Shown one piece after another: positions 6,482 through 55,248 of a stretch of 64,000 bases of DNA (its first letter is position 1; each line of letters starts with the position of its first letter). The stretch lies in the NCBI RefSeq assembly GCF_001593005.1, contig NZ_LQZQ01000002.1, forward strand, positions 310,001 through 374,000. Reading direction: 5' to 3'. The translations under genes and the position numbers were made by a program. The stretch is from Roseivirga ehrenbergii (GTDB lineage Bacteria; Bacteroidota; Bacteroidia; Cytophagales; Cyclobacteriaceae). The notes below the pieces were generated by a model that searched no databases, was not told the origin of the DNA, and was given only the letters and a program-made list of their open reading frames with translations.

Positions 6482-6873
6482 TTGCTCTGAAAATAACTAA
6501 CTGATTTTGGGATATTTTTTTCGCTGAAATTGGGAATACCTCGCCTCAGAATGCTACAGGCTCATTTTTTAAATACTTATCAACAAAAATCAAATTCCAC
6601 TTGTTTATTATACATATCTACTAATCAGATACTTACGTAGAAAGTCTCAAAAAGTGTGGACAACTTTTCCATTTTGTGGAAAAGATTATTTGATTTTCAT
6701 CAATCTTTGTTTTGTCTAAATAGTTTACCAATCATCGGTTTTTTAAAGTCTATTTCTGAACCAGAAATGCGCCTCTTCTTACAAATTTCAATTGTATTTT
6801 TGTGAGCAGGAGTTGACTCAAACCAAAACACAAATAGACCCGATTATTTTAACCACAATGTTAACCCAATATT
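6482..6873. other. Intergenic stretch, no gene seen
   Basis: An AT-rich gap of about 390 bases between the ClC gene and a possible gene remnant. It holds many short A/T runs and a TATTTTTG box at 6795-6802 that fits the TAnnTTTG -7 consensus. I see no convincing reading frame, RNA gene or strong hairpin. Confidence 0.6.
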
Positions 6874-48594: not shown

Positions 48595-48610
48595 TGTTCC
48601 ACGTGAAACA
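48595..48610. promoter_or_regulatory. parS: parS site 1 (ParB binding site)
   Basis: TGTTCCACGTGAAACA matches the parS consensus TGTTNCACGTGAAACA at every position. It lies between ybeY and mnmG. ParB loads here and recruits SMC and ParA to segregate the origin region. Confidence 0.9.
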
Positions 48611-48640: not shown

Positions 48641-48656
48641 TGTTCCACGTGAAACA
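48641..48656. promoter_or_regulatory. parS: parS site 2 (ParB binding site)
   Basis: A second identical TGTTCCACGTGAAACA, 46 bases after the first and 17 bases before the mnmG ATG. Two perfect copies of a 16-base palindromic site cannot reasonably be chance. Confidence 0.9.
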
Positions 48657-48672
48657 TCAAGAAGAAAATTAT

Positions 48673-50538
48673 ATGTTCAATCAATACGATGTCATAGTTG
48701 TTGGTGCTGGCCACGCTGGTTGTGAAGCTGCAAATGCTGCTGCAACTATGGGTTCAAAGGTTCTTTTAGTAACCATGAACATGAATACCATAGCTCAAAT
48801 GTCGTGTAACCCCGCAATGGGCGGAGTGGCAAAAGGGCAAATTGTAAGAGAAATAGATGCACTTGGAGGTATGTCGGGAATCATTACCGATAAATCTATG
48901 ATTCAATTCCGTATGCTCAACAAGTCCAAAGGTCCGGCAATGTGGAGCCCACGTACTCAAAGTGACCGAATGAGGTTTGCGGAAGAATGGCGACTAGCAT
49001 TAGAGCGCAATCCTAATATCGATTTTTGGCAAGAAATGGTCACAGGTATTATTGTAGAAAACAATACTGCAGTCGGTATCACCACAGGAATGGGTATTGA
49101 GATTAGATCAAAATCCGTTGTGCTTACGAATGGCACTTTTTTAAATGGACTCATTCATATTGGTGAAAAACAATTTGGCGGTGGTAGAACAGGAGAAGGA
49201 GCATCTAAAGGAATCACTGAACAACTCGTTCAACTTGGGTTTGAATCAGGAAGAATGAAGACCGGAACACCTCCAAGAGTAGACGGACGATCTTTAGACT
49301 ATTCCAAAATGGAAGAACAAAAGGGAGATGAGGTACCAGGGAAATTCTCTTTTTCTCCTTCAACCACACCATTGCTTCAACAGAAAAGTTGCTATATCAC
49401 CTATACCAACCCAGAAGTACACGCAATTTTGGAGACTGGTTTTGACAGATCGCCAATGTTCAATGGTAGAATTCAAGGTTTAGGACCACGCTATTGCCCA
49501 TCTATTGAAGATAAAATCAATCGTTTTTCCGAAAGAACGAGACATCAAATCTTTGTTGAACCAGAAGGGTGGGACACAGTTGAAATCTATGTCAATGGAT
49601 TTTCAACATCATTACCAGAAGACGTACAGTTCAAGGCAATACGTAAAATAGCCGGTTTTGAAAATGCCAAAATGTTCAGACCAGGTTACGCTATCGAGTA
49701 TGACTACTTTCCCCCAACACAGTTAAGTACTACTCTCGAAACCAACCTTATTCAAAACCTGTACTTTGCTGGTCAAATTAACGGAACCACCGGTTACGAA
49801 GAAGCAGCTTGCCAAGGATTGATGGCTGGAATTAATGCGCATAATAAAACACACGATAAAGAACCTTTTGTTTTAGGAAGGTCTGAAGCCTATATCGGAG
49901 TATTAATTGATGATTTGATTAATAAAGGTACCGATGAACCTTACAGAATGTTCACTTCTAGAGCCGAATACAGAATACTCTTGCGCCAAGATAACGCAGA
50001 TATTCGCCTTACGGCTAAAGGTCATAAGCTTGGATTAGCCTCAGACGAAAGACTTAAAAATGTTGAAGAGAAAAAGAGGTCTGTTTCGAAACTGCTAAAT
50101 GATATTCGACAAAAGAAGATCGATCCAGATAAAGCCAACCCAGCTCTCGCTGCGCTTGGTACAGCAATCATAGAACACAGAACCAATTATGCCAAGCTGT
50201 TAAAGCGACCACAAATCAATATTTATGATCTACCTTCATTCGATGAAGAGCTTGCAAACTACTTGGCAAAGTATGATCATGAAGTTTTAGAGCAAGTTGA
50301 TATTCTTATCAAATACGAAGACTATATAGATAAAGAAGAAAAGTTGGCTGATAAAATCAGTAGCTTAGAAAACCATACTATTCAAAACGATTTTGACTTT
50401 GATTCCATTAGTGCTTTATCTGCAGAAGCTCGAGAGAAATTCAAGAAAATAAAGCCATCTACAATTGGGCAAGCTTCAAGAATAAGTGGAGTTTCACCAG
50501 CAGATATTTCAGTACTTATGGTTTATATGGGTAAATAA
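48673..50538 (+). CDS. mnmG: tRNA uridine 5-carboxymethylaminomethyl modification enzyme MnmG
   Basis: A 621-residue FAD enzyme that with MnmE modifies wobble uridines of tRNAs. The start at 48673 gives MFNQYDVIVVGAGHAGCEAA, the FAD dinucleotide fold; a GTG eight codons upstream lies within parS 2 and is rejected. CNPAMGGVAKGQIVREIDAL, KTGTPPRVDGRS, AGQINGTTGYEEAACQGLMAG and FTSRAEYRILLRQDNAD are family signatures. mnmG (gidA) is often close to oriC in bacteria, in keeping with the parS sites here. Confidence 0.96.
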   Translation: MFNQYDVIVVGAGHAGCEAANAAATMGSKVLLVTMNMNTIAQMSCNPAMGGVAKGQIVREIDALGGMSGIITDKSMIQFRMLNKSKGPAMWSPRTQSDRMRFAEEWRLALERNPNIDFWQEMVTGIIVENNTAVGITTGMGIEIRSKSVVLTNGTFLNGLIHIGEKQFGGGRTGEGASKGITEQLVQLGFESGRMKTGTPPRVDGRSLDYSKMEEQKGDEVPGKFSFSPSTTPLLQQKSCYITYTNPEVHAILETGFDRSPMFNGRIQGLGPRYCPSIEDKINRFSERTRHQIFVEPEGWDTVEIYVNGFSTSLPEDVQFKAIRKIAGFENAKMFRPGYAIEYDYFPPTQLSTTLETNLIQNLYFAGQINGTTGYEEAACQGLMAGINAHNKTHDKEPFVLGRSEAYIGVLIDDLINKGTDEPYRMFTSRAEYRILLRQDNADIRLTAKGHKLGLASDERLKNVEEKKRSVSKLLNDIRQKKIDPDKANPALAALGTAIIEHRTNYAKLLKRPQINIYDLPSFDEELANYLAKYDHEVLEQVDILIKYEDYIDKEEKLADKISSLENHTIQNDFDFDSISALSAEAREKFKKIKPSTIGQASRISGVSPADISVLMVYMGK

Positions 50539-50541
50539 AAA

Positions 50542-51423
50542 ATGGAAAGATTAGAGGAATGTCCACTCTGTGGAAATGCCCAGTTTGAAAGCTATTTGAA
50601 AATCAATGATCATTTCTTGAGCCATGAAGAGTTTCAACTTCAGAAGTGCTCTTCATGCGATTTAGTCTTTACCAATCCAAGACCTACACAAGCTGAAATA
50701 GCCCCGTATTATAAATCCTTAGATTATATTTCGCATTCCAATAAAACCAAAAGTCTTTCTAGTCTTCTATACAAACTAGTAAGATCATATACTCTTGGCA
50801 AAAAATATAGACTCATTAAATCGCAGCTCCACCAGACCTCACAAGTCCATCATTTGGATTACGGTTCTGGAACTGGCCACTTTATAGATTATACTTCAAA
50901 TAAAGGTTGGATATCTAAAGGCTACGAACCAGATCAAAATGCCTTATCGCATAATAATAAATCAATTCAGAAATTGATTTTACATAATTTCGAGTCAATT
51001 CAACATAATACTTACGATGTAATCACCTTATTTCATGTTTTGGAACACGTACATGATCTCAATTCTGTATTAGAATTACTAATCAAACAACTCAAACCAA
51101 AGGGAATATTATTATTAGCACTTCCTAATCATAAATCATATGATGCTCAACACTACAAACAGCATTGGGCTGGTTATGATGTACCCAGACATCTTTATCA
51201 TTTCGATAGAAAAAGTGTAAATCAATTAGCTAAACAACATGGCCTAAAAATTGATAAAATCGAACCAATGGTGTTCGATGCTTTTTACGTAAGTATGCTT
51301 TCAGAAAAATATGTGGGAAATTCCATGACCTTAGTCCGCGGAATGTTAAATGGATTTAAATCCAATAGCAAAGCAAACAACAGTGGCGAATACAGTAGCT
51401 TAATCTATATCCTCAGAAAATGA
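50542..51423 (+). CDS. Zinc-ribbon class I SAM methyltransferase
   Basis: A 293-residue protein with an N-terminal zinc ribbon (CPLCGNAQFES and CSSCDLVFTNPRP) and a methyltransferase core: HLDYGSGTGHFIDYT (SAM loop), DVITLFHVLEHVHDL and GILLLALPNHKS. Zinc-ribbon methyltransferases of this type act on sugars, lipids or tRNA; the target is open. It starts 3 bases after mnmG and overlaps the next lipoprotein gene by 4 bases, so all three form a chain. Confidence 0.87.
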   Translation: MERLEECPLCGNAQFESYLKINDHFLSHEEFQLQKCSSCDLVFTNPRPTQAEIAPYYKSLDYISHSNKTKSLSSLLYKLVRSYTLGKKYRLIKSQLHQTSQVHHLDYGSGTGHFIDYTSNKGWISKGYEPDQNALSHNNKSIQKLILHNFESIQHNTYDVITLFHVLEHVHDLNSVLELLIKQLKPKGILLLALPNHKSYDAQHYKQHWAGYDVPRHLYHFDRKSVNQLAKQHGLKIDKIEPMVFDAFYVSMLSEKYVGNSMTLVRGMLNGFKSNSKANNSGEYSSLIYILRK

Positions 51424-53051
51424 CCAGAATACAGATTCTTTTCACTGCCATACTATTATCACTACTAGGTTGTGCCCGTATATCATCACCAACTGGGGGA
51501 CCGGAAGATAAAGATCCACCCATACTAATTTCTTCCAACCCAAGTGATGGTCAAACTCAATTCAATCAAAAAACAGTAACACTAGTTTTTAACGAAGCAG
51601 TTACTACAAAATCTATTGAGAACAACCTGATCATTACACCTTCAATAGGCGGTAACTTCAAGACAAGAATCAAACGTAATACAGTCCAATTGCTATTCGA
51701 TAGCGCGTGGAGAGAAAACACTACTTATTCCCTTAACTTCGGAAATACAATAGTAGACCTAAATGAAGGCAATATTCCTAAAAACCTTTATCTCAGTTTT
51801 TCAACTGGTGAAACAATTGACTCATTATCCATTTCAGGAAAAATAACCAATTTATATACATCTGAACCAGTAAAACAAGCACTTGTTTCATTGTATCCAG
51901 CTTCAGACACATTGAATATAACTTCTGGAGCAGCTCTATACTTAACAAAAACCGACACGGCAGGAAACTATAAATTTCAAAACCTTCCTTCTGGAAATTT
52001 CTTAGTGTATGCAGCACTCGATAAAAACAATAATTCTAAAGCCGATACTGATAAAGAGCTTTATGGTTTTCTGATGGACACGGTAAATCTAACAGAGAAT
52101 ATCGCTCAACAATCATTCTCATTACAAAGACTCAATGTTCTTCCTTTGTCTATTAAAACAAATCGCCATTTCGGAAAATACTACGATATCACTTTCAACA
52201 AACCAATTACATCTTATGAATTAGAAAGTGATATACCTCTAGCCCATCATTTATATAGTCCGGACAAAATTAGAATTTACAATACGATGGAAACTTATGG
52301 TGATTCCACCAACTTGGTCATAAATGCAAATGATTCTATCGACAGTAGATTGAAACAAATTGTCAAACTCTATTTCAACGAATCTAATTTGGAAGGAGAT
52401 AAACTAACACACAATATATATCCATCAAGCCCCTATATTTCTAATATCTTCAATCTTAAAGTAGCCTTTAACAAACCCATCATAACTTATAATTCTGAGA
52501 AAGTAATCCTTCAAAAAGATAGTCTCAATCAATTTTCTATACCTGATTCATTGATGACATGGAACACATCAAAAACAGAAATTTCCTGGATCTTAAATGG
52601 AAGCAACTATATCAAACCTGGTGAGCAATTACAAGCCATATTCGAAAAAGGAGCATTTGTAAGTGTTGAAGCAGATACATCATCTCTCATTCAAAAAACA
52701 TTTCAAGTAGCCAAATCAGAAGACTCCGGGCTAATTCAAGGAACCATAACAACAGATGCGCCTCACTTCATTATACAATTATTAAATAATCAAGGAAACG
52801 TAATTCGTGAGCTGTACAACAATAAGAACTACACCTTCAACAACCTTGATGCAGGTAATTATAAAGTGAGAATGATTATCGATACCAACAATAATAAAAG
52901 ACATGATGTTGGAAATATACTTACAAGAACACCTTCAGAATCCATAATATTCTACACAGATCCCATTTCAAAAAGCAAAACCATTAGCGTTAAAAAGAAC
53001 TGGGAAATAGGCGATATCAATATTTCTCACACTGTGAATAACAAGGATTAA
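51420..53051 (+). CDS. Ig-like domain lipoprotein (Big_5 type)
   Basis: A 543-residue lipoprotein. The signal ends in LLSLLGC (Cys near residue 17), followed by the motif SSPTGGPEDKDPP, typical of this bacteroidetal family. Residues about 35-130 form an SbsA-type Ig-like (Big_5) domain (VTLVFNEAV, YSLNFGNTIVDLNEGN), then a carboxypeptidase-regulatory-like segment (ISGKITNLYTSEPVKQALVSL), and two more Ig-like parts. Probably cell-surface anchored. The last codons carry one TTATTCACA DnaA box, showing the origin reaches into the gene. Confidence 0.82.
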   Translation: MTRIQILFTAILLSLLGCARISSPTGGPEDKDPPILISSNPSDGQTQFNQKTVTLVFNEAVTTKSIENNLIITPSIGGNFKTRIKRNTVQLLFDSAWRENTTYSLNFGNTIVDLNEGNIPKNLYLSFSTGETIDSLSISGKITNLYTSEPVKQALVSLYPASDTLNITSGAALYLTKTDTAGNYKFQNLPSGNFLVYAALDKNNNSKADTDKELYGFLMDTVNLTENIAQQSFSLQRLNVLPLSIKTNRHFGKYYDITFNKPITSYELESDIPLAHHLYSPDKIRIYNTMETYGDSTNLVINANDSIDSRLKQIVKLYFNESNLEGDKLTHNIYPSSPYISNIFNLKVAFNKPIITYNSEKVILQKDSLNQFSIPDSLMTWNTSKTEISWILNGSNYIKPGEQLQAIFEKGAFVSVEADTSSLIQKTFQVAKSEDSGLIQGTITTDAPHFIIQLLNNQGNVIRELYNNKNYTFNNLDAGNYKVRMIIDTNNNKRHDVGNILTRTPSESIIFYTDPISKSKTISVKKNWEIGDINISHTVNNKD

Positions 53052-53403
53052 CTGTGAATAAGAACGAGGATAGACCAACCTCAATCCACACTACTCCACA
53101 TTCTTCAGTACCCACTTAGAGCCAAGTGGATAAATTCGTAACCTTTCAAGTAATTTTCAGAACCCCATCCACATTTTAAAAGTCAGTATTTATTATCCAC
53201 AAAATCGATCGATATTCACAGAAAAAAATTAACTGATTATTAATCAATAAATTAGAAGTTGATAAGATGTTTATAAACGAAATGCTCTGTACAACTTACC
53301 AACAGTTTTAAAGAACTTATGTGGGGAATCAAGTTGTACACATATCCACAGTCTTAATAGAGAATAATTATCTTTAATCAATTAACTATATTTAATTACT
53401 AGC
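53033..53403. other. oriC: Putative chromosomal replication origin (oriC)
   Basis: A perfect DnaA box TTATCCACA lies at 53193-53201. Two reverse TTATTCACA boxes lie at 53033-53041 (in the last codons of the lipoprotein gene) and 53053-53061, 20 bases apart. One-mismatch boxes are at 53125-53133 (reverse), 53212-53220 (ATATTCACA) and 53342-53350 (ATATCCACA); weaker ones are at 53082, 53092, 53165 and 53320. AT-rich stretches suited to duplex opening are 53221-53280 and 53353-53400. ATCGATCGAT (53204-53213) sits between two boxes, and TGTACAACTT / AAGTTGTACA flanks 33 bases at 53298-53330. No gene lies in this gap. With the parS pair 4.5 kb away this is strong circumstantial evidence for oriC. 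Confidence 0.8.
53288..53340. repeat. Inverted repeat TGTACAACTT / AAGTTGTACA within oriC
   Basis: Perfect 10-bp arms at 53288-53297 and 53331-53340 with a 33-base spacer that contains a weak DnaA-like box. It may be a cruciform, a regulator binding site or part of the unwinding element. Confidence 0.55.
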
Positions 53404-53424
53404 GTGTTGAAAATGTTAACAACT

Positions 53425-55248
53425 ATGAGGAAGACAGCTCTTTTGCTATTTATGATACTGATGACTAGTGCCGCATTTTCGCAGGTCGATGCTATTGCAC
53501 TTGCAAATGAATACTATGAGCAAGGAGAGTTTGAGAAAGCATTAACTGAGTATAAAAAATTAGCCAAGAACAACTCAAACATTCCTAGAATACACGACAA
53601 CTATTTAAAATTACTTTTAAGCGAAGAAGAATTTAAAGAAGCCGAAAAGTACTTAAAGGGTGTAATTAAAGATAATCCAGAAAACTTCTTCTATCAGGTA
53701 GATTTGGGAATGCTCTACAAAAGTCAAAAAGAAGAAGAGAAATCAGAGAAAGTATTTAATGACATAATTGCTGAACAAGCGAAAGATGCCGGAGAAAATC
53801 AGAAAACAAATGGCATAAGATTTTTAGCTCAGGTATTCTTTGAAAAAAACCTGAGAGAAAAAGCGCTAGAAACTTATCAAGAAGGAAGAAAAGCAATGAA
53901 TCGGCCTGATATGTTTTCACTAGAATTGGCCAACGCGTATCAGCTGATGAATCAAAAGCAGGAGATGGTTTTGGAATATCTCATTTTTTCAAAATCGCAG
54001 CCCCAAAATCTGAGCTATGTTAAAAATTCATTTCAAAGAGTACTTACAGAACCTGAAGATTTAGATACACTTGAAACAACGCTTTACGATTTCATTCAGA
54101 AAGACGCAGGTAACCCTATTTACAACGATCTATTGGTTTGGACCCACCTACAACAGAAAAATTTTGCGGCTGCCTTACGGCAGGCTAGAGCCTTAGATAG
54201 AAGGCTTCAGAATAATGCAGAAAATATTATTAACGTGGGTTTGATCGCGTTCAGAAATCAAGAATACAAAACAGCGCAAAAAGCATTTGATTATGTTCTT
54301 ACGGAGTTTCCTGATAGTCCGAGTAAAAATTTAGCACAGCGTTATGTTTTATTGGCCGATGAAGAAGTGGTAAAGCAAACCTATCCTGTGGATACTACTG
54401 CAATTAGGAGTTTAATTGTGAAATATGATGCCTATAAGGAAAACTTAAGAGACGTATTTAATATCATTGATGCCAATAGGAGAGTTGCCCATTTGTATGC
54501 TTTTTATTTAAACGAAATACCAAAAGCCATCGAAATTCTTACAGAGAATGTGAACCAACCAGTTGGTAAACATCGGGTAATTGCAGAATCAAAAATGGAT
54601 TTGGCAGATATCTATTTACTTAATGAAGAACCTTGGGAATCTATTTTACTCTATGCTCAGGTAGAAAGAATGTTTAAAGATGAGCCTTTAGGTTATGAGG
54701 CAAAACTGAAGAGTGCCAAGCTTTCTTACTTCAAAGGAGAGTTTGAGCTTGCCCAAAGTCACCTAGATATTCTAAAACTTGCTACATCTCGAGAAATTGC
54801 AAATGATGCCTTAAACCTCAGTATTCTAATTAAAAATAATACCGTTTTTGATTCTACAGATGTGGTGATGCAAGAATACGCCAATATTGAATTACAACTC
54901 TTTCAGAATCAAAAAAATGAAGCTATTGTTGCCTTAAACCAAATGATTGAAAAATATCCTAAACACTCAATTATTGATGAGGTATATTTTTTAATGGCGA
55001 AAACAGAAAGAGAGCTTGGCCATTTTGATAAAGCTTTAGCTGCTTTAGGTGTTATAAATCAGACGCATTATTTCGAAATTTTAGGAGATGACGCTCTTTT
55101 TCTAACGGGGGTTATTTTAGAAGATGACTTGAAGGACAATGAAAAAGCAATGGAAGTTTACCTTCAACTGCTGGAAAAATATAAGGGAAGCATATTCGTT
55201 TCCGAAGCCAGAAAAAGGCTGCGAGAACTGCGAGGAGACTTTGGTTAA
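53425..55248 (+). CDS. Secreted TPR-repeat protein
   Basis: A 607-residue protein. The start ATG at 53425 begins the signal peptide MRKTALLLFMILMTSAAFSQ; earlier starts at 53404 and 53413 only add a few codons. The rest is mostly TPR-like helical pairs (ALANEYYEQGEFEKALTEYKKLA, then many similar pairs to the end: FDKALAALGVINQTHYF). Such proteins are periplasmic or outer-membrane scaffolds in Bacteroidetes. It is the first gene right of the putative origin. Confidence 0.85.
   Translation: MRKTALLLFMILMTSAAFSQVDAIALANEYYEQGEFEKALTEYKKLAKNNSNIPRIHDNYLKLLLSEEEFKEAEKYLKGVIKDNPENFFYQVDLGMLYKSQKEEEKSEKVFNDIIAEQAKDAGENQKTNGIRFLAQVFFEKNLREKALETYQEGRKAMNRPDMFSLELANAYQLMNQKQEMVLEYLIFSKSQPQNLSYVKNSFQRVLTEPEDLDTLETTLYDFIQKDAGNPIYNDLLVWTHLQQKNFAAALRQARALDRRLQNNAENIINVGLIAFRNQEYKTAQKAFDYVLTEFPDSPSKNLAQRYVLLADEEVVKQTYPVDTTAIRSLIVKYDAYKENLRDVFNIIDANRRVAHLYAFYLNEIPKAIEILTENVNQPVGKHRVIAESKMDLADIYLLNEEPWESILLYAQVERMFKDEPLGYEAKLKSAKLSYFKGEFELAQSHLDILKLATSREIANDALNLSILIKNNTVFDSTDVVMQEYANIELQLFQNQKNEAIVALNQMIEKYPKHSIIDEVYFLMAKTERELGHFDKALAALGVINQTHYFEILGDDALFLTGVILEDDLKDNEKAMEVYLQLLEKYKGSIFVSEARKRLRELRGDFG

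Follow-up and report, generated by a model that had tools for sequence, protein, structure and literature searches.

Does the short gap between an Ig-like lipoprotein gene and a TPR gene in Roseivirga ehrenbergii, remote from dnaA, hold the chromosomal origin of replication (oriC)? The original prediction, made from the letters of this DNA, had read it so. We analysed the gap within a window of 64,000 nucleotides (C2:310001-374000, part of a 502-kb contig, C2, in a draft genome of 4.24 Mb and 52 contigs) and in its relatives, and we consider it highly probable, at roughly 95%, that this marine bacterium initiates the replication of its chromosome within the gap, as far as such a function can be read from sequence. 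We adopt this reading because the cluster of DnaA boxes is far above chance and unique on the 452 kb sampled; because the GC skew changes sign at the junction of the two genes in C2, G001, G016, G018 and G030; because the weakest DNA duplex adjoins a tandem pair of boxes; because both strong parS sites are near; because the cluster and a 45-bp profile derived from it track the lipoprotein/TPR junction; and because the organism has a DnaA with domain IV (Bac_DnaA_C), which bears the motif GGRDHSTV, the surroundings of its dnaA being devoid of such a cluster. The box cluster, the skew switch and the conserved junction thus bear out the original prediction. The features concerned are collected in Table 1.

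Table 1. Features of the probable Roseivirga origin, its neighbourhood and the companion element (positions in the window)
Feature	Position	Strand	Remarks
Probable oriC	53031..53403	+	intergenic DnaA-box cluster and unwinding region; skew switch; position kept in relatives
DnaA boxes, at most one mismatch	53033(-), 53053(-), 53125(-), 53193(+, perfect), 53342(+)		TTATCCACA scan
DnaA boxes, two mismatches (n=9)	53082, 53092, 53165, 53212, 53257, 53268, 53296, 53320, 53334		TTATCCACA scan
Two direct DnaA boxes TTATTCACA	53033-53041, 53053-53061	-	20 bp apart
DnaA box TTATCCACT	53125..53133	-	box scan
Perfect DnaA box TTATCCACA	53193..53201	+	opens the segment box/IHF-like site/inverted box
AT-rich near-dyad TAACTGATTATTAATCAATAAATTA	53230..53254	.	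contains the perfect IHF-consensus site
Weak inverted DnaA box TTATAAACA	53268..53276	-	perfect TGTGGATAA in L007, L008
Tandem DnaA boxes TTGTACACA and ATATCCACA	53334..53350	+	start-to-start 8 bp
TTAATAGA	53354..53361	+	(C/T)TAATA in relatives; putative DnaA-trio-like start of the unwinding region, by analogy with BUS
DNA unwinding element candidate	53353..53402	.	nearest-neighbour duplex energies
parS TGTTCCACGTGAAACA	48595..48610	+	near-perfect site
parS TGTTCCACGTGAAACA, second copy	48641..48656	+	overlaps annotated mnmG start
mnmG (gidA)	48649..50538	+	TIGR00136; end 2.5 kb from gap
Left neighbour, Ig-like (Big_5) lipoprotein	51420..53051	+	PF13205
Right neighbour, TPR protein	53404..55248	+	
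Companion element	6577..6683	+	boxes 6577-6585(+), 6655-6663(-), 6675-6683(-); IHF-consensus-like site 6623-6635

Boxes were sought with the consensus TTATCCACA, those with at most one mismatch being called strong and those with two mismatches weak. From the lipoprotein stop at 53051 to the TPR start at 53404 the gap measures 352 bp (53052-53403), and 14 boxes with at most two mismatches, five of them with at most one, are packed into 371 bp. It had been claimed that six strong and several weaker boxes occupy some 370 gene-free bases: the cluster of strong boxes is real, but their number by the one-mismatch scan is five; the weaker ones number nine; the gene-free stretch is the 352-bp gap; and the leftmost box (53033-53041) falls inside the final codons of the lipoprotein gene. 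The stop codon of that gene is overlapped or abutted by the two leftmost boxes, a direct pair that is kept in loci L003 and L004 and partly in L005/L006. From the contig average one would expect 0.12 strong boxes, or 1.4 when up to two mismatches are allowed, and dinucleotide shuffles of the gap contain, on average, 0.16 and 1.9 +/- 1.3, respectively; none of 2000 such shuffles equalled the observed counts. Over the 452 kb of contig sampled, boxes are nowhere so dense as in the gap, and the runner-up among the non-overlapping clusters listed for the same 452 kb has 8.

The best-conserved part of the gap is its right end, in which the tandem boxes are followed within a few bases by CTAATA or TTAATA and then by AT-rich DNA. 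These boxes overlap each other by 1 bp and are kept in nearly all the junction origins examined. Directly after them, at 53353-53402, comes the 50-bp stretch whose duplex is the weakest anywhere in the window, as computed from nearest-neighbour energies, and it is to this easily unwound, AT-rich stretch that the unwinding candidates of the original prediction can be assigned. Farther to the left, in the stretch bounded by the perfect box (53193) and the inverted one (53268), the sequence AATCAATAAATTA (53242-53254) matches perfectly the E. coli IHF consensus WATCAANNNNTTR as quoted in PMC10380432; judging from this match, a protein of the IHF/HU family probably binds there. Among 17 aligned oriC sequences, seven have a perfect IHF site in place (A or G being allowed as the sixth base); several of the remainder have one mismatch, and the rest are degenerate.

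Other symmetrical elements of the gap did not withstand comparison. The palindrome ATCGATCGAT is present as predicted (53204-53213), but R. seohaensis already has it in broken form; the 10-bp inverted repeat (53288-53297 / 53331-53340) is likewise real but is not conserved in the Roseivirga relatives. Because they are altered or absent in those relatives, we reject both as functional parts and regard them as probably incidental. A 25-bp dyad, TAAnTnnYTGATnATCARnnAnTTA, was rejected as a unique origin signal; as it occurs 53 times in the genome at up to three mismatches, against 22 occurrences of its reversed control, we take it for no more than a protein site of moderate enrichment.

The position of the cluster was followed through 80 loci that encode a homologue of the lipoprotein, the closest named matches of which are from Roseivirga seohaensis (96% identity) and then R. 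echinicomitans (82%). A TPR neighbour is found in 20 of these loci, all 20 of which also have mnmG and ybeY upstream, and in 19 of the 20 the gap contains 9-16 boxes; the conserved order of the block is ybeY-parS-mnmG-methyltransferase-lipoprotein-oriC-TPR. In the other 60 the TPR neighbour was not seen (L146 is cut off at this point by the end of its contig), and at the lipoprotein gene such a cluster is missing from all 60. A 45-position profile of the right end of the origin, built from 12 Roseivirga origins and run on 79 whole genomes, finds a single match in its own genome (E 5e-11) and matches 18 of 19 Roseivirga. Among the 30 best loci of these blind whole-genome searches, 28 lie beside the lipoprotein gene, and 27 of the 28, which include genera outside the profile set, have the TPR gene on the other side.

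This junction is not the universal position of the origin, since G056 and some other order-level relatives have the lipoprotein gene with no box cluster near it, and G045 keeps the junction with few boxes, a weak cluster; such differences suggest that origins have moved or changed in some Cytophagales. In L081, L127 and the loci L151-L209 the lipoprotein gene is located elsewhere, without a DnaA-box cluster. A phylum-wide position was also considered and rejected: in Flavobacteriia, Bacteroidales, Saprospiraceae and Chitinophagaceae the lipoprotein homologues are accompanied neither by the TPR gene nor by the boxes.

The original prediction had proposed that the skew minimum of the chromosome should coincide with the gap, and as far as the data allow it does. 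As the genome is a 52-contig draft, its own skew was followed, in sampled stretches, on the 502-kb contig: on the left of the gap it is for the most part below or close to zero (close to zero over 1-160 kb, at the far left), on the right for the most part above zero, and the skew at four-fold degenerate sites, which is corrected for gene direction, agrees with the raw values. The sign changes at the junction in four Roseivirga genomes (the window's own, G000, and G001, G016 and G018). In G001, a near-complete Roseivirga chromosome on a 4.576-Mb contig from which 27 places were sampled, a two-state model fits best with a negative arm from 1.20 to 3.34 Mb and a positive arm that starts at 3.37 Mb and continues past the contig end to 0.96 Mb; the junction is at 3.378 Mb, the split falls between the samples at 3.34 and 3.37 Mb, and the opposite switch is about half a chromosome away. 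A relative of another genus with a single-contig chromosome of 5.49 Mb (G030) has at its junction an origin-type switch, near 1.75 Mb, and the opposite one near 4.5 Mb, again about half a chromosome distant. The skew minimum thus lies at the junction in the sampled chromosomes of G001 and G030, and on partial contigs the same is seen in G000, G016 and G018; G040, a relative with a 9-Mb genome, is not clear, having the box cluster at the junction yet a coarse skew sign change some 0.8-1.2 Mb away.

The two parS copies, 4.4 kb to the left, are the only near-perfect ones in the 4.24-Mb genome; the distance of 4.5 kb that had been given for both parS and mnmG is close for the former, while the end of mnmG is in fact much nearer (Table 1). 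Both parS sites stand beside mnmG, and parB is on another contig (G000:C12:103957-104235). No Rfam RNA or tRNA was found in the window. That dnaA is not near, as originally remarked, is correct: the gene is 191 kb distant on the same contig.

Could the cluster instead be a site of DnaA titration or regulation, akin to datA or DARS, with the true origin elsewhere? DnaA-box clusters do occur outside origins, and the window itself contains a second DnaA-box element, but the skew switches exactly at this place in several genomes, a strongly duplex-weak region adjoins the cluster, parS is nearby, and the 452 kb sampled on the contig, the surroundings of dnaA included, hold no competing cluster; we therefore consider this explanation very improbable. 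Still harder to credit is that the boxes serve to control transcription of the TPR gene, with DnaA acting as a transcription factor and without any origin function: the gap is indeed the upstream region of that gene in all junction-bearing relatives, but the number and spread of the boxes, the skew switch, parS and the conserved unwinding module are unexpected for a simple promoter. Other phyla are known to have bipartite origins in which some boxes lie beside dnaA, but an origin of which the other half lies at dnaA is equally implausible here, and an origin wholly at dnaA was likewise rejected, the 20 kb around that gene having no box cluster (the densest 400 bp hold 5 boxes with at most two mismatches) and no clear skew switch.

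Taking the gap, then, as oriC, we infer protein binding, the site of unwinding and the order of events from what was computed, namely the box cluster and its conservation, the skew switch, the duplex weakness and the position of parS. DnaA would bind the box cluster, and a DNA-bending protein of the IHF/HU family at 53242-53254 would probably fold the DnaA-bound arms together. From the tandem boxes DnaA could then be loaded onto one strand of the TTAATA/AT-rich stretch, and the opened segment would serve for helicase loading and bidirectional replication. ParB at the two parS sites would presumably mark the newly copied origin for segregation.

The second DnaA-box element, 46 kb to the left of oriC, is built on the same plan as the oriC segment 53193-53276; it is intergenic and lies downstream of a ClC channel gene. 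When the two spacings of a three-box pattern were left free (55-85 and 8-14), each of the 19 Roseivirga genomes gave a single copy and 99 other genomes gave none. Despite this freedom all the copies have the same length of 107 bp, and all 19 have an IHF-like site, with at most two mismatches, at the identical offset; at the other offsets tested such a site occurs in no more than three copies. Where the companion and oriC share a contig they are separated by 46 to about 200 kb. When the pattern is relaxed to a box, 34-44 bp, an IHF-like site and an inverted box, it is found in 37 out of 118 genomes from the family and order, against 0 of 118 for its reversed control; many of its matches are away from oriC, and flanking bases outside the pattern are also conserved. 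Arrangements of a box, about 46 bp, an IHF-like site and an inverted box, mostly about 87 bp long, are seen outside oriC in many genera of Cytophagales (for example G027:C244:65617-65703, G035:C9:372921-373007 and G063:C20:128776-128862). The genome has a single PF00216 (HU/IHF) gene (C2:378770-379036; L046:4737-5036, minus strand), about 15 kb from oriC, and the best NCBIfam scores of its product are with IHF models, below their cut-offs.

We regard the companion as a candidate datA/DARS-like regulator of DnaA activity. It is a tentative proposition, with chances a little under even, that Roseivirga and its relatives possess a stand-alone locus for DnaA control that is built from the same kind of segment as lies inside oriC, a Bacteroidota counterpart of datA or DARS served by the single IHF/HU-family protein. 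The companion and its kinship with oriC are the most novel part of this work, and the shared segment of box, IHF-like site and box offers a direct way into datA/DARS-type control of DnaA in Bacteroidota.

For the origin itself, we found no description in the literature of a position between lipoprotein and TPR genes in this order (DoriC was outside the search), nor any paper on DnaA-trios in Bacteroidetes. The Bacteroidota origins that we did find in the literature come from prediction software, and a program that takes dnaA as its default may put them in the wrong place. What is added here is an origin that is conserved and can be aligned, and whose 45-bp signature recovers the right junction in blind genome searches and therefore makes possible the placement of origins in draft Cytophagales genomes as well as growth-rate (peak-to-trough) estimates.

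Among known systems, the closest in location are the predicted origins of Flavobacteriaceae beside mnmG (Mariniflexile litorale, PMC11278836; Algorimicrobium, PMC12843772), which are likewise away from dnaA and in agreement with GC skew; one of these two reports states that dnaA is not aligned with the skew plot. Both are software predictions given without an architecture, and the Roseivirga origin differs from them in lying two genes downstream of mnmG, between the lipoprotein and TPR genes. With E. coli oriC it shares a DnaA-box cluster, an IHF site between boxes, an AT-rich unwinding element at one end and mnmG (gidA) nearby, but it has no GATC enrichment, the order and spacing of its boxes and its flanking genes are different, and it is not beside mioC.

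The right end of the origin recalls the basal unwinding system (BUS) of B. subtilis and other bacteria, in which DnaA is loaded from tandem boxes, the commonest arrangement in the BUS survey, onto single-strand trinucleotides (PMC6669920, PMC8287927). In Roseivirga, too, tandem boxes lead after a few bases into an AT-rich strand that begins with (C/T)TAATA, that is, 3'-(G/A)AT-TAT-5' on the complement. The published rule asks for three or more NAN trios no farther than 16 bp from a DnaA box with at most two mismatches (PMC8287927); in the window 3'-CAG AAT TAT-5' right after the box formally has this form, but such runs are common in AT-rich DNA. The Roseivirga origin differs in that most Roseivirga have two clear consensus-like trios only, the third repeat not being kept in the relatives, and in that the boxes overlap by 1 bp; as two trio-like repeats alone are kept in the genus, we say, from a reading of the sequence, that this end may work like BUS and not that it is BUS. 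The companion, finally, resembles E. coli datA and DARS2 in being intergenic and in combining, outside oriC, a few DnaA boxes with one IHF-consensus site at fixed spacing. The resemblance is one of layout, with box orientation and spacing not matched to those of E. coli; for datA the spacing matters, and boxes 2, 3 and 7 are required together with one IHF site (PMC10380432).
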